A stretch of DNA of 10,362 nucleotides. Origin: Clostridia bacterium (GTDB taxonomy: Bacteria > Bacillota_E > SLMV01 > PUMD01). A program made the translations under genes and the position numbers. The stretch spans positions 1 through 10,362 of the forward strand of contig SKXF01000163.1 of NCBI GenBank assembly GCA_007128555.1. The letters run 5' to 3'. Each line of letters starts with the position of its first letter. Within the stretch, counting starts at the first letter, position 1. This document shows, in pieces, positions 1,941-6,927 of this stretch. The notes beneath the pieces were generated by a model. It did not search any database. It was not told where the DNA came from and worked only from the letters and a program-made list of their open reading frames with translations.

Positions 1941-3032
1941 TTGCGCCATTTCGAGCTTCCAACTCGGTATGTGTTGGCTTTTTTTCTCATTCTCCTCCTC
2001 ATCCTCAGCTTCTATGTGTCTCGATCTTCGGTCACGGCTTCAGGCCTGGAGGGGCTTGAGGCCTCGGAGCGCGAGGCGCTGTCTGAACTGTTTCACCTCA
2101 TGCTCATCGTCGAGGGCTCCAGGGAACGCATGGAGGAACTGGACGAGCAGATCGCTGATCTCGAGGAGGACATCGCCAGGCTGCAGACTGCGATTCTCGA
2201 AGGCGAAGACAGGTATCTCGAGGCGCGTGCCCGAACCGTTATCTCCCTGCGCTGGATCAACCGACTGGGTCCCGCCTCTTACCTCGAGATTCTTTTTGGG
2301 GCCACCTCCCTGAGGGACTATCTCAGGAAGACCGAGATCATGGCCGGTGCCGCCCGGGGGGCTGTGACCGCCCTCGCCGACATCCAGAAGGAGAAGGAGT
2401 CCCTGGATGCGCTGGAGGTGCAGATCGAAACCCTCGCTGCGGACGTGGAGGTTCTCGCTTCAGAGAGGGAGCCCCTCGCGATGGCCGAGGAGGACCTGGA
2501 GCAGCACAAGATGCAGATGGCGGAGGTCTTCGGTGCTCAGTGGGATTCGCTTCACGCTGAACTGTCCTCGTTGAAGACGCTCTGGGAAGGTGATATCTTG
2601 CCCTACCTGGAGACACTTCCCCGCGCCCTTTCCCGGTTGGCGGATGACGGTGTGCCGCCTGAGGACATCATCATCATCCCCTCCCTTTTCAGTTTCAAGG
2701 CGATCATACCTGCGTCGAGTCTCAATGACATGATGGACGGTGAATCCGGGCTGAGGGGTGCAGCCTTTCGCTTCGTCGCGGGCGAGGCTTACCTGGTCAT
2801 TGACGAACTTCAGATGGTCATCAGGGGCTCGCTATCGATCGATCAGAGTGGGCTGGTCGTCTATCATGTGTCCTCGCTCGAAATCGCGGGCCTGCCGATC
2901 CGTGACAGATTTGCCCTTGGCCTACTCGAGGAACTATCTCTCAATCTCGGTCCTTCGCTGCAGGGAATGAGCCCAAGGAGCCTGAATGTTGGAGAAGGTG
3001 TGCTGGAACTGGTGGTGACGCTCTTTTCGTGA
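1941..3032 (+). CDS. Membrane-anchored coiled-coil protein, putative FtsX partner (PcsB/CwlO/EnvC-like, no hydrolase domain)
   Basis: This 363-residue protein starts at TTG behind AAGGGGG. Residues 9-27 form one hydrophobic segment (uncleaved anchor or signal), so the rest should lie outside the membrane. Residues about 40-103 and 142-195 are heptad-rich, acidic coiled-coil helices. Between them, residues 113-134 (SYLEILFGATSLRDYLRK) match the short-helix region that in PcsB, CwlO and EnvC lies between the two long coils and binds FtsX. Those proteins are known partners that FtsEX uses to switch on cell-wall cleavage. Here there is no CHAP, NlpC/P60 or LytM domain. Instead, residues about 245-363 form a mixed alpha/beta domain (FRFVAGEAYLVIDELQMVI, SGLVVYHV, GLPIRDRFALGLLEEL) that vaguely recalls DUF2993/YpmS-type lipid-binding folds. 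The gene stops 19 bases before ftsE, so cotranscription is likely. The FtsX-partner role is inferred from the coil pattern and operon; the C-terminal function is unknown. Confidence 0.82.
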   Translation: MRHFELPTRYVLAFFLILLLILSFYVSRSSVTASGLEGLEASEREALSELFHLMLIVEGSRERMEELDEQIADLEEDIARLQTAILEGEDRYLEARARTVISLRWINRLGPASYLEILFGATSLRDYLRKTEIMAGAARGAVTALADIQKEKESLDALEVQIETLAADVEVLASEREPLAMAEEDLEQHKMQMAEVFGAQWDSLHAELSSLKTLWEGDILPYLETLPRALSRLADDGVPPEDIIIIPSLFSFKAIIPASSLNDMMDGESGLRGAAFRFVAGEAYLVIDELQMVIRGSLSIDQSGLVVYHVSSLEIAGLPIRDRFALGLLEELSLNLGPSLQGMSPRSLNVGEGVLELVVTLFS

Positions 3033-3051
3033 GGGGCAGGAGGGGACCGGA

Positions 3052-3741
3052 ATGATCGAGGCATCAGGCCTGGGAAAGGTCTACTCGAACGGCACAGTGG
3101 CACTGAGAGATTTCGACCTGCGGGTCGACCGCAACGAGATGCTCTTCATTCGGGGGCAAAGCGGTGCGGGCAAGACCACACTGTTCAAGCTGATGATGGG
3201 CATGGAGCTTCCCTCGTCTGGAACCCTTCGTGTTGATGACTGCGTCATGGGGGCGTGTGGAACCCGGTCCCTGCGCAACCTTCGGAGGAAGATGGGTGTG
3301 ATCTTCCAGGACTTTCGTCTCATAAAGGGCCGGACCGCCCGGGAGAACGTGGAGCTTGGCATGCGCGTGCTCGGTGTGTCCGGAATCGAGGTCCGCCGGC
3401 GTGCTGAGGAGTACCTGGACTGGTTGGGCCTGGGTGATCGCGTTGGGTCCCAGGTGGATTCCCTGTCGTGGGGAGAACAGCAGCGCCTGGTCGTGGCCAG
3501 GGCACTGTCCCGGCGACCCCAGATCATTTTTGCCGATGAGCCCACCGGGAATCTCGACGAAGAGCTGTCAACCCGGGTCATGGACCTCCTGCTTGCTGCG
3601 CAGGAGAGGGGTGCGACGGTGCTCGTGGCGACCCACTCCCCGGAGATCCTTCGGCAGACCCGCCATCGGGTAATCACACTCAGCAACGGCCGTCTTGTCG
3701 GGGACGTTCCCGCAGATTCAGGAAGGGGGCGTCACCGGTGA
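3052..3741 (+). CDS. ftsE: Cell division ATP-binding protein FtsE
   Basis: This is a 229-residue ABC ATPase of the FtsE family at the usual length. It starts at ATG 3052 behind AGGAGGGG. All nucleotide-binding motifs are visible: Walker A GQSGAGKTT (35-43), Q-loop Gln86 in FQDFRL, Walker B IIFADEP (158-164, Glu163 catalytic), D-loop NLDE (167-170) and H-loop His195. FADEPTGNLD and the FQDFRL Q-loop are typical of FtsE. The signature motif is LSWGEQQ (138-144), with Trp140 where FtsE normally has Gly (LSGGEQQR). FtsE is cytoplasmic and dimerises on FtsX; ATP binding and hydrolysis transmit a conformational signal that activates peptidoglycan hydrolysis at division or elongation sites. It overlaps ftsX by four bases, so the two are translationally coupled. 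Confidence 0.96.
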   Translation: MIEASGLGKVYSNGTVALRDFDLRVDRNEMLFIRGQSGAGKTTLFKLMMGMELPSSGTLRVDDCVMGACGTRSLRNLRRKMGVIFQDFRLIKGRTARENVELGMRVLGVSGIEVRRRAEEYLDWLGLGDRVGSQVDSLSWGEQQRLVVARALSRRPQIIFADEPTGNLDEELSTRVMDLLLAAQERGATVLVATHSPEILRQTRHRVITLSNGRLVGDVPADSGRGRHR

Positions 3742-4610
3742 GGATGCCGGACGTTGGCTTCTTCGTCAGGGAGGCTTTCAAGGGTCTCAGGCTCCATCTC
3801 ACAGCAAACATCATCTCCGTATTATGTATTGCCCTTGCCTTTCTCAGCCTCAGCTTCCTGGTGGGCGCGTGGTCGAACATGGAACACATCCTGGAGGTGG
3901 CCCGCGCTGAGGCGGAGATTGTGCTGTATCTCACCGAGGAGAGCTCCATCGAGGAGGCGGAGGCTGTCTCGGACGTTCTTATGTCCCAGGAAGGTGTCCT
4001 GAGCACTCGTATTGTTACCGCTGAGGAATCGCTGGAAAGAATTCAATCCCTCATCGGCCCCGGCCTGGACATCATGGAGGTCCTGGAGGGCTATAACCCC
4101 TTCACACCCTCGGTCGAGGTGGGCGTGGAGCCGGAGGTTGTCGTTGAGGTCGCTGCCGCCGCTCGGGCTCTGCCGGGGGTGGACGCCGTCCGCGACAACG
4201 AGGAGATCCTGGGTCCCCTCGCGAACCTGACCCAGACCGTGCGCTGGATGGGCATGGTCACCACCCTGGCTGTGGCTCTGATCAGTCTCGCCCTGGTCTC
4301 TCACATCGTCCGGCTTGGCATCGCAGCAAGGCGGGAGGAGATGCGCACCCTTCGGCTCATGGGGGCATCGGAGTGGTTTGTTTCGCTGCCCTTCGTACTC
4401 GAGGGGGCCATCCTGGGAGGGTTGGGAGCGGTGACTTCACTTGTGACGATAACCGCTGCTGGGCCCGGAATCTACCGGCTCGTGCATACATCCCTTCCCT
4501 TTATGCCACTGGTGGCGTGGGAGAGTCTCTTTATGCTTCTGGTCTCGATCGTCCTGACTCTCGGTTTCGTGGCAGGAATCCTGGGCGGTTTGATCTCGCT
4601 TCGTACCTAG
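3738..4610 (+). CDS. ftsX: Cell division protein FtsX (FtsE membrane partner)
   Basis: The 290-residue product has the FtsX layout: a short cytoplasmic N-terminus (VREAFKGLRLHLTANI), TM1 at about 24-45, a large extracytoplasmic domain at about 46-170, then TM2 (172-195), TM3 (217-240) and TM4 (262-285). NPFTPSVEV (120-128) is the family's NP-[LF]-P-S-[FV]-[EV] strand in the extracytoplasmic domain. RREEMRTLRLMGAS (198-211) is the cytoplasmic loop that contacts FtsE. The start is GTG 3738, overlapping the ftsE stop as GTGA, with GGAAGGGGG upstream; ATG 3744 is the alternative. FtsX carries the FtsE signal across the membrane to a coiled-coil activator or hydrolase. Here the obvious candidate is the gene at 1941-3032, placed upstream of ftsE rather than downstream of ftsX as is common for pcsB/cwlO-type genes. 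Confidence 0.95.
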   Translation: MRMPDVGFFVREAFKGLRLHLTANIISVLCIALAFLSLSFLVGAWSNMEHILEVARAEAEIVLYLTEESSIEEAEAVSDVLMSQEGVLSTRIVTAEESLERIQSLIGPGLDIMEVLEGYNPFTPSVEVGVEPEVVVEVAAAARALPGVDAVRDNEEILGPLANLTQTVRWMGMVTTLAVALISLALVSHIVRLGIAARREEMRTLRLMGASEWFVSLPFVLEGAILGGLGAVTSLVTITAAGPGIYRLVHTSLPFMPLVAWESLFMLLVSIVLTLGFVAGILGGLISLRT

Positions 4611-4688: not shown

Positions 4689-5186
4689 GTGGAACAGGAG
4701 GTGCGGAGGGGAGTGGATCCTGCTCGTACGTGCTGGTTCTGTGAGAAGAACCCACTGGACGATGAAGTGTGTTTGCCGGTGGATATGTACTACATCACGA
4801 ACGTGGAATACAGCCCAAACCTTGACGTGAGCAAAAAGACGACGTATCGAACCGCGAAAGTGATGGTGCCGCGCTGCATGCACTGCCGGTCTGTGCACGA
4901 GCACGAAAGCAGTCTGGGGTGCGGCGGTAGCGCGATAGGTGGCGTTATCGGTATCATCGGGGCCATTGCTTATCAAGTAGCCTTCATGACGGGCGAGCCC
5001 GGATCTATCGACCTGACCCCGGCTGTAATGGGTGGAGCCATCGGCGCGGGCATTGGCACGGGTGTTTCCTATCTTATCGGTCTCATTCAGCGCCCATCTG
5101 GCGTAAAACCAGAAGGCGTCAAGCATGATCATCCTGATGTCAAGAGCATGATCAGCCGGGGTTGGCTTCCTGGTGAAAGTCCATAA
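4689..5186 (+). CDS. Zinc-ribbon protein with two membrane segments
   Basis: The product is 165 residues from GTG 4689. GTG 4713, better placed after AGGAGG (4696-4701), would give 157. Two CxxC pairs, Cys15/Cys18 (CWFC) and Cys63/Cys66 (CMHC), form a likely zinc ribbon with the intervening beta strands. Two glycine-zipper membrane segments follow (about 79-101, GGSAIGGVIGIIGAI, and 112-133, AVMGGAIGAGIGTGVSYLI). A conserved-looking C-terminal helix with a GW motif ends the protein (HPDVKSMISRGWLPGESP). This architecture occurs in uncharacterised bacterial membrane proteins; no function is known to me. The frame is open from directly after the ftsX stop, with no other start before 4689. It sits 78 bases after ftsX on the same strand with no visible terminator, so cotranscription is possible. 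Confidence 0.75.
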   Translation: MEQEVRRGVDPARTCWFCEKNPLDDEVCLPVDMYYITNVEYSPNLDVSKKTTYRTAKVMVPRCMHCRSVHEHESSLGCGGSAIGGVIGIIGAIAYQVAFMTGEPGSIDLTPAVMGGAIGAGIGTGVSYLIGLIQRPSGVKPEGVKHDHPDVKSMISRGWLPGESP

Positions 5187-5342: not shown

Positions 5343-5846
5343 GTGGACCTGAACTCGTTGGGGTTGTCCATTCATCAAATGCAGAGGGGACACGAACAGG
5401 CTGTGGCTGACCTGATCGAGCGCACCTTCATGGCTGCTGTGGCTCCCGGGTATTCACCGGAGGGCGTCGAGGCGTTCTTGAGGTATGCGGCCCCAGGTGC
5501 GCTGCTACACCGGGCAGAAGGGCCCAAACACAGGACGCTTGTGGCCATTGATGGCGACAGGGCGGTCGGTGTCGTTGAGCTCAGAGAGGGCCGACATATT
5601 TCGTTGATGTTCGTGGATCCGCTGTACCAGGGGCGGGGATTGGGGCGGCAGCTGCTGCACCGTGTCCTTAGCGCCCGGCAGGAGACGCAGGTGGCTGAGA
5701 TCACCGTTAACGCGTCTCCGAACGCAGTGTCGACCTATCGCCGGATGGGATTTCGTCCGGCAGAGCCCCAAAGAGAAAGAGACGGCATCTTGTATGTTCC
5801 GATGGTTGCGCAGCTGTTGGATGTGTTCGGACGTGGCCCATCCTAA
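5343..5846 (+). CDS. GNAT family N-acetyltransferase
   Basis: The frame opens at GTG 5316, but GTG 5343 has AGAAGGGGGAG (5322-5332) ten bases upstream and is preferred, giving 167 residues. From that start the GNAT fold is clear. Strand beta4 and the acetyl-CoA pyrophosphate loop are at residues 87-105 (SLMFVDPLYQGRGLGRQLL, with QGRGLG as Q/R-x-x-G-x-G). Motif B is at 123-137 (NASPNAVSTYRRMGF), where Tyr132 is the usual general-acid position. The enzyme should transfer an acetyl group from acetyl-CoA to an amine; the N-terminal substrate-binding helices (MQRGHEQAVADLIERTF) do not identify the acceptor. It is cytoplasmic, with no signal peptide. A 156-base gap from the previous gene suggests its own promoter. 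Confidence 0.9.
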   Translation: MDLNSLGLSIHQMQRGHEQAVADLIERTFMAAVAPGYSPEGVEAFLRYAAPGALLHRAEGPKHRTLVAIDGDRAVGVVELREGRHISLMFVDPLYQGRGLGRQLLHRVLSARQETQVAEITVNASPNAVSTYRRMGFRPAEPQRERDGILYVPMVAQLLDVFGRGPS

Positions 5847-6288
5847 CGCTGCAATCCCGCCCAGGCATTGCAGATGTACCATTTCCTCGTTTTTTCGCCC
5901 TGTCAGGTATTTGTGCATCCTCTGCCCGACACGGTGAGGGGCACGGTCTGACGGCCAAGGCGGATTCTCCCCCCGACGGAGGATCCTGCTCAATCATCAG
6001 AGAAGGCATCATAGGATAATGACTTCATCATCTGAGGGGAGGGCGTATGGTCAGTTTCTCGTATCTTGAGGGCCTGCACCCTGGATGGAGTCTGTCTTTC
6101 CTTGTGGGCAAGACGAGACATGTTCGTCGATAGGAACGGGATTCGTGTTGGATCGGGCCATCGATTGGGCACTGCAGGAGAGCGTGGTCTTGTGCTCATT
6201 GTCGGCCATCTTCTCGAGTGTGATTTCAATCACCAATGATAGTCATCGCAATATCGTGTGGTTCAACGGTAGAAAGGAGTTGGGGTCG
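5847..6288 (+). other. Intergenic region of 442 bases with no convincing gene
   Basis: The plus-strand frame of the next gene stays open back to 6085, but that stretch reads as non-natural protein and lacks a ribosome binding site. Short minus-strand frames (for example 6051-6236) lack support. A 6-bp inverted repeat CTGCAA/TTGCAG (5849-5854 and 5868-5873) follows the GNAT stop but has no adjacent T-run. A tighter inverted repeat lies at 6220-6233. The region may hold decayed coding sequence or an unrecognised RNA. Confidence 0.5.
6220..6233. repeat. Inverted repeat, possible operator upstream of the lipoprotein gene
   Basis: GTGATT and AATCAC are separated by two bases, making a near-perfect 14-base dyad 55 bases before the GTG start at 6289. 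Dyads of this size and spacing are typical of dimeric repressor sites. No specific regulator can be named and chance is possible. Confidence 0.3.
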
Positions 6289-6927
6289 GTGAGTAGAAGA
6301 TACGTTTCGTCGGTGATCGCCCTGCTGGTTTTCGTGATGATCTTTGCCCCAGCATGTATGAAGGCGGAGTCAGAATCGCCGGGTGCAATAGACGAGCCTG
6401 AGCCGGAGACCGAGGAAGCAGAGCATGAACCTGAGGAACCTGAACAGGAAGCGCCTGAATCTGAAGAAGAAACCGAAGAACCTGAAGGAGAAGAAGAGGC
6501 AGTGGAGGAATCGGAGGTCTTTGGTGTTGGTGAAACGGCGATTAATGAGAAATACGATATCACCGTGACGGGTGCCCGCTGGGTTCTCACGGACGGACCC
6601 GATACACCGGGTGCTGGTACGCGATGGTTGGGCATTGGCTACAGCGTTGAGAACAAGTCGGACACGGAGTTTAGTGTGTCGAGGCTGGTGAATTTTCGTC
6701 TCAACGACGACGCTGGCGAGGGTTCCGACGTGCGCCTACTCGCGGATTCAGCCACGATGGATGGATGGATCGACGAGGGAGAAACCCTGCAGGGAGAGAT
6801 TATTTTCATCGTACGAGAAGGCGACACCCGTTGGGAGTTCGTTTTCAATCCCGATGCGTTTACGTTTCCCAACCTGGGCTTTGGTCGGTCCCATTTTCGC
6901 ATTAGAATCGATGACGTAGAGGAGTGA
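6289..6927 (+). CDS. Lipoprotein with Glu/Pro-rich linker and DUF4352 domain
   Basis: GTG 6289 is chosen because AAAGGAG (6273-6279) lies nine bases upstream and the signal peptide then starts at residue 1 (VSRRYVSSVIALLVFVMIF). That is a basic N-region, a hydrophobic core, and a lipobox-like APAC with Cys23 as the lipidation site. Residue -3 is Ala rather than the preferred Leu, so the lipobox is slightly weak. Residues about 29-77 are a very acidic Glu/Pro-rich linker. Residues about 78-204 form an immunoglobulin-like DUF4352 domain: FGVGETAINEKYDITVTGAR, RWLGIGYSVENKSD, then GETLQGEIIFIV and EFVFNP near the end. DUF4352 proteins are exported, often lipid-anchored, and mostly uncharacterised. 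The protein would sit on the outer face of a membrane with its domain held away by the charged linker; the ligand is unknown. Confidence 0.85.
   Translation: MSRRYVSSVIALLVFVMIFAPACMKAESESPGAIDEPEPETEEAEHEPEEPEQEAPESEEETEEPEGEEEAVEESEVFGVGETAINEKYDITVTGARWVLTDGPDTPGAGTRWLGIGYSVENKSDTEFSVSRLVNFRLNDDAGEGSDVRLLADSATMDGWIDEGETLQGEIIFIVREGDTRWEFVFNPDAFTFPNLGFGRSHFRIRIDDVEE

Follow-up and report, generated by a model that had tools for sequence, protein, structure and literature searches.

A close-packed operon of three genes on the plus strand, encoding a 363-amino acid (aa) coiled-coil protein followed by FtsE and FtsX, lies at positions 1941-4610 of a 10,362-nucleotide stretch of DNA from a Clostridia bacterium (contig SKXF01000163.1, assembly GCA_007128555.1; the whole stretch is called the window below). 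Comparison of sequences indicates that the operon is a second, paralogous, and recurrent FtsEX system, here called FtsEX-2, and that related genomes carry an ordinary FtsEX with an M23 peptidase-bearing partner elsewhere. We propose, with a probability of roughly 0.7, that the FtsEX-2 partner keeps the hairpin coil gripped by FtsX, that a TULIP domain replaces the hydrolase or activator domain, and that the system has an ATP-driven lipid role. A preliminary description of this DNA had placed a coiled-coil gene at the head of an ftsE-ftsX operon, with which the positions of the open reading frames (ORFs) and the Pfam domains agree. The paralogous, recurrent system goes beyond what that description had guessed.

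A search with the window protein as single query returned 5 proteins including the window's own, and a profile of five sequences returned 7, again including it; all were 360-363 aa long, and the relatives sharing the C-terminal domain (4 and 6, respectively) were 360-362 aa. The single-protein search gave few relatives, and the wider family was found by six-frame searches of genomes. Scanning of a genome collection gave three loci in Clostridia metagenome-assembled genomes (MAGs), each with the order coil gene, ftsE, ftsX. A profile search was performed over 151 genomes, consisting of the first Clostridia MAG and its relatives; 115 were matched, 12 of them over nearly the whole profile (in two pieces for G006 and G140), and the remaining matches were mostly to the coil only. 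The coil gene was directly followed by ftsE in all 12 loci first examined. Next on the same contig was ftsX in 11 of the 12 (10 in the first survey plus G007, truncated by the contig end); the contig of G008 ended just 3' of ftsE, and a piece of FtsX was on another contig. A thirteenth linked genome among the 151 was G113. For the second sample, 398 genomes were drawn evenly from across the phylum, and 50 of these matched the C-terminal domain profile. Thirty loci from those 50 comprised 16 with a coil-TULIP gene followed by ftsE, 12 with a full-length gene adjacent to which no ftsE was found, and 2 with a gene of LmeA size; in G403, the only one inspected among the other 20 matches, the coil-TULIP gene was unlinked. 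Because relatives with the same domain exist and the coil gene precedes ftsE in 12 of 12 loci, the partner is not a chance ORF. The linkage that the preliminary description had proposed to survey was therefore recurrent in both samples.

At least two matches to the FtsX extracytoplasmic domain (FtsX_ECD) were present in 26 of the 28 other genomes with a coil gene before ftsE (two each in the first 12 linked genomes); the exceptions, G494 and G453, had one match each, at the linked locus. Genomes with unlinked coil-TULIP genes had a single FtsX_ECD match (16 of 16). In 11 of the 12 genomes first inspected, the gene immediately 3' of the other ftsX encoded a coil protein with an M23 peptidase domain, and both domains were above the Pfam cut-offs in all 11 of these partners. 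In G140 (locus L082), no M23 partner adjoined the ordinary-type FtsX, and the next long frame was transporter-like and on the other strand. A script sorted 83 distinct FtsX sequences into 46 with an M23 partner downstream, 26 whose ftsE is preceded by a coil-TULIP gene, 11 with neither, and none with both; for the FtsX tree, 2 of the 11 were assigned by hand, L080 as ordinary and L063 (the G008 fragment) as second type. In this tree, which was made by a quick method, has some long branches, and had no root inferred, the 27 second-type FtsX formed one side of a branch with a support of 100. The FtsE tree agreed, separating 26 second-type from 34 ordinary sequences with a branch support of 100. 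The FtsE signature was LS[WYF]G in 26 of 26 second-type sequences and LSGG in 34 of 34 ordinary ones. All 26 second-type FtsE retained the Walker B sequence ADEPTGNLD and the H-loop histidine, and at least 23 had the Walker A pattern. To the ordinary-type FtsX of G113 (L186), the flank of which was short, the script assigned no partner. Three FtsX_ECD matches each were present in G424, G244, and G378, where a further FtsEX copy may exist.

The window FtsX passed the Pfam cut-offs for FtsX_ECD (PF18075; 38.1 bits vs 23.5) and for the permease domain (PF02687; 37.6 bits vs 25.5), and an ABC_tran domain was present in the window FtsE. Both proteins missed the NCBIfam cut-offs (FtsX_Gpos, NF038347, 156.3 bits vs 225; the FtsE equivalog TIGR02673, 230.4 bits vs 264.85), although the top NCBIfam models were nonetheless FtsX and, over the whole length, FtsE. 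The sub-cut-off FtsX score is consistent with a diverged paralogue.

The partner was modelled with AlphaFold2 from an alignment of 18 homologous sequences (mean pLDDT 85.0, pTM 0.66). In the model, two long helices (residues 41-120 and 124-236) join at the SYLEILFGATSLRDYLRK turn, which has the motif SYLE..LRK, and residues 244-360 form a mixed, beta-rich domain. This matches the anatomy read earlier from the sequence, namely a hydrophobic segment, two coils, and a C-terminal domain of approximately 120 residues; instead of anchoring the protein, the N-terminal segment may serve as a signal peptide and be cleaved off. CHAP, NlpC/P60, M23, and amidase domains were absent from the window protein in Pfam at E ≤ 1 (25 weak families, no hydrolase among them), the same search found no hydrolase in 14 C-terminal domains of the partner family (four families listed), and the motif HxH[FYLW]E occurred in none of 26 second-type partners. 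Nor did profile comparison with M23 domains reveal a hidden hydrolase (probability 0.07%). For the 28 whole partner proteins scanned, 25 of 41 families were listed, and the absence of a hydrolase is based on the 14-domain scan and the motif. The preliminary description had spoken of a partner that lost, or never had, a hydrolase domain. The absence held in the Pfam, M23 profile, and motif searches, but a simple loss did not, as a TULIP-type domain occupies the place. A relative from Symbiobacterium thermophilum (P0008) bears a source name starting with "Peptidoglycan hy"; it had a PcsB-type coil above the cut-off (32.0 bits), an LmeA match below it (21.4 bits), and no hydrolase in Pfam, and is a warning against naming such coil-TULIP proteins hydrolases.

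The coil of the window group was aligned by hhalign with the coils of 27 M23-bearing partners at an E-value of 7e-20 over 133 columns, SYLEVLL turn included, and the SYLEILFGATSLRDYLRK turn was aligned with the SYLEVLL..F.DF motif of those partners. Reversed-coil controls for the window group were far weaker (E = 0.002 and 0.0009), and a mere coiled-coil likeness was rejected for this group. For the wider family, the argument rests on E-values because reversed controls reached probabilities of 61 and 76%. The top match of the family profile among sequences in the Protein Data Bank (PDB) was PcsB (E = 5e-4). Foldseek with the model ranked EnvC (8tzl, 6tpi), PcsB (4cgk), and RipC (8idc) 2, 5, 6, and 13 of 459; these matches sit amid unrelated long coils, none had E < 0.001, and their support is weaker. 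The single window protein scored under the Pfam cut-off of CC_PcsB (16.9 vs 27), and VIA-align was uninformative, since it paired the full-length model with generic long helices such as those of dynein and the PI3K regulatory subunit. Judged by profile alignment, the partner coil shares ancestry with the coils by which M23-bearing partners bind FtsX, and the PcsB/CwlO/EnvC type of coil named in the preliminary description finds its support there.

In the published EnvC complex, FtsX binds where the first long helix finishes and the second begins, according to an excerpt of PMC7668044, and RipC is likewise gripped via its coil domain (passages of PMC10694151 and PMC11627006). The putative partner-binding lobe of FtsX, placed by position, was kept in FtsEX-2; it ended in NPF in 8 of 8 second-type sequences printed and in NPL in 6 of 6 ordinary sequences printed, a comparison that leaves out 4 further loci not fitting the pattern. 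The coil of the second-type partner would be expected to bind its own FtsX.

The C-terminal 120 residues of the window group matched columns 106-229 of LmeA/DUF2993 (PF11209), which are its TULIP half, with an E-value of 6.8e-8; shuffled controls gave probabilities of 1.5% or less. The domain model aligned best with the TULIP proteins YceB and BPI, a structural match to the TULIP fold at 5-11% identity in the alignments with TULIP proteins. Taken singly, L048, L050, L041, L116, and L114 aligned to the LmeA profile from positions 91-97 up to 214-216, so that only the C-terminal part of the model's 217 positions was covered. Among members scanned singly, only L114 passed the Pfam gathering score of LmeA (32.5 vs 27.3; next best 24.7). 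The window domain alone had no LmeA (PF11209) match in the Pfam domain scan, and neither Foldseek with the domain alone nor its profile against PDB sequences gave anything significant. A six-frame LmeA search of the 151 genomes was silent in 12 of the 13 linked-gene genomes other than G140, the match in G113 being elsewhere in the genome; the Pfam LmeA model alone would therefore miss the coil-TULIP group. Profile and model comparisons indicate that the C-terminal domain is of the TULIP type, a lipid-binding fold, and it probably binds lipid. The earlier suggestion that the output is not wall cleavage, but perhaps lipid binding, gains support from the predicted lipid-binding fold and the lack of a detected hydrolase.

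FtsX relays ATP-driven movement from FtsE to the coil partner, as stated in passages of PMC11627006 and PMC10694151. In FtsEX-2, the ATP cycle of FtsE would shift the extracytoplasmic domains of FtsX, and these would displace the partner coil. In the simplest mechanism, the moving coil would free, dock, or tilt the TULIP domain above the membrane and so expose or reposition it. There, the TULIP domain could bind, sense, or pass on a lipid, or a polymer linked to a lipid, on the membrane's outer face, and the output might be lipid transfer, sensing, or tethering. Such ATP-driven gating is inferred, as would be any place or timing of FtsEX-2 in the cell cycle. Searches of 151 and of 16 genomes, jointly covering all 28 linked-gene genomes, gave no Omp85 match in any of them. 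The target would accordingly be the cytoplasmic membrane, on its outer side, or a wall polymer linked to lipid, and not an outer membrane; lipid trafficking to an outer membrane was considered unlikely. A link to sporulation was uninformative: all 28 linked-gene genomes had Spo0A, yet so did most genomes of the two samples (345 of 398 and 141 of 151). In a wider and tentative proposal, to which we give somewhat less than even odds, FtsEX might be a general ATP-driven mechanotransmitter with an exchangeable output, and FtsEX-2 would drive lipid extraction, sensing, or hand-over by the TULIP domain, synchronously with wall cleavage through ordinary FtsEX. During division, candidate cargoes would include lipoteichoic acid and a lipid carrier.

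Other scenarios were weighed against this lipid role. The C-terminal domain could act as a recruitment adaptor like EnvC, binding a wall hydrolase, a synthase, or a teichoic-acid enzyme that FtsEX-2 would control in trans. Among coil partners, EnvC itself is a precedent for one that lacks hydrolase activity of its own (passages of PMC11627006 and PMC7668044), and mycobacterial LmeA maintains the mannosyltransferase MptA (an excerpt of PMC7643837), so that a TULIP-bearing protein can act via another protein. However, no hydrolase gene was recurrent beside the operon, the downstream frames varied among the loci printed, and the predicted fold is that of lipid-binding proteins; we consider such an adaptor unlikely. 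Alternatively, the coil-TULIP protein and FtsEX-2 could be decoys that dampen ordinary FtsEX via mixed complexes, with the TULIP domain as a membrane tether only. The homologous coils, the coexistence of at least two FtsX in 26 of 28 genomes, and the unlinked coil-TULIP genes in 16 single-FtsX genomes would all suit a competitor, but the intact Walker B and H-loop histidine of FtsE-2 (26 of 26) and the separate branch of FtsX-2 suggest a working, insulated system, and we hold this scenario to be quite improbable. A lipid or lipoprotein exporter of the LolCDE or MacB kind that merely resembles FtsEX is the least credible scenario, for although FtsEX, MacB, and LolCDE share one type within the ABC superfamily (a passage of PMC10694151) and the window FtsE and FtsX fall under the NCBIfam cut-offs, FtsX_ECD passed its cut-off both in the window FtsX and in all of the listed FtsX matches, the top NCBIfam models remain FtsE and FtsX, the partner coil belongs to the type that FtsX binds, and, with Omp85 missing from the 28 genomes, nothing points to an outer membrane that such an exporter would serve.

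With FtsEX systems that work with PcsB, CwlO, RipC, or a coil-M23 partner, FtsEX-2 has in common the FtsE ATPase, the FtsX extracytoplasmic domain, and the hairpin-coil partner. It differs in that the C-terminal domain of the partner is TULIP-like and not CHAP, NlpC/P60, or M23, in the place of the partner gene (5' of ftsE, whereas M23 partner genes are 3' of ftsX), and in being a paralogue beside ordinary FtsEX with LS[WYF]G instead of LSGG in FtsE. As in FtsEX-EnvC, the coil partner does not itself cut the wall, but EnvC bears an amidase-activating LytM domain, and no M23/LytM domain was found in the FtsEX-2 partner. The C-terminal domain aligns with the TULIP half of LmeA/DUF2993; unlike LmeA, however, the partner is without the N-terminal Chorein-N half and has an FtsX-type coil instead, and LmeA matches in the genome search were mostly stand-alone proteins of approximately 220-270 aa. 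We know of no FtsX-type coil or FtsEX operon for the TULIP proteins YceB, BPI, and P47. The prevailing picture of FtsEX is that of a switch controlling wall hydrolysis when cells divide. A literature search that most subscription papers and all preprints lay outside turned up no paper joining FtsX to DUF2993, or to TULIP and lipid transfer. FtsEX with a coil partner is already known; a paralogous system with a TULIP-type effector was not found described. If the lipid role is true, the same FtsEX switch can be wired to membrane lipids and LmeA-type TULIP domains gain an energised partner. The operon would then also offer a natural domain swap for asking what FtsEX itself transmits.

From the 16 genomes that have one FtsX and an unlinked coil-TULIP gene, it seems that the partner can also function by itself or together with ordinary FtsEX. 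At L140, L143-L146, and L148-L154, coil-TULIP genes of approximately 360-403 aa had no ftsE beside them in single-FtsX genomes, and 7 of 12 wider flanks (among L187-L198) had two common neighbour families of unknown function. In six cases (G163:C1, G508:C1, G380:C1, G526:C1, G332:C2, and G403:C1), the contig with the unlinked coil-TULIP gene also carried the single ftsX, only approximately 39-79 kb away, a spacing that may be synteny of related genomes. In G048 (L050:5035-7651), the coil-TULIP gene overlapped the end of a gene resembling a CtpA-type protease, named by reading the sequence, and the single FtsEX with its M23 partner was on another contig. Stand-alone LmeA-type genes were close to ordinary ftsE-ftsX-M23 partner clusters at L118-L126. 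Of 44 genomes with a stand-alone LmeA match, 17, counted by eye, had it on one contig with the M23-partner match at a distance of approximately 4-16 kb, with several genes between. A binomial figure for this proximity assumes independence and a 2.5 Mb genome, though the genomes are related, and the closeness is weak support at most. The features of the window operon are collected in Table 1.

Table 1. Features of the FtsEX-2 operon, in window positions
Feature	Position	Strand	Detail	Basis
Coiled-coil/TULIP partner gene	1941..3032	+	363 aa, TTG start	ORF list, homologues
N-terminal hydrophobic helix: signal peptide or membrane anchor	1956..2018	+	residues 6-26	AlphaFold2, sequence
First long coil helix	2061..2300	+	residues 41-120	AlphaFold2
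SYLEILFGATSLRDYLRK turn	2277..2330	+	residues 113-130	profile alignment, invariant columns
Second long helix	2310..2648	+	residues 124-236	AlphaFold2
Predicted TULIP-type domain, like LmeA/DUF2993 C-terminal half	2670..3020	+	residues 244-360	profile and structure comparison
ftsE, second type	3052..3741	+	229 aa	ORF list, ABC_tran, FtsE tree
FtsE ABC signature LSWGE	3463..3477	+	residues 138-142; aromatic replaces first G of LSGG	
ftsX, second type	3738..4610	+	290 aa	ORF list, Pfam, FtsX tree
FtsX extracytoplasmic domain	3915..4190	+	residues 60-151	PF18075, 38.1 bits

Downstream of ftsX, at 4689-5186, the window has a gene for a small cysteine-containing, membrane-type protein, for which Pfam gave no family above cut-off. 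This gene was retained in the nearest relative (L001, 4324-4797) and was unmatched in the other loci compared. Further along, at 6085-6927, is a gene with a DUF4352 domain in Pfam; the matching place in L001 held a different small, lipoprotein-like frame on the opposite strand (5642-6010).
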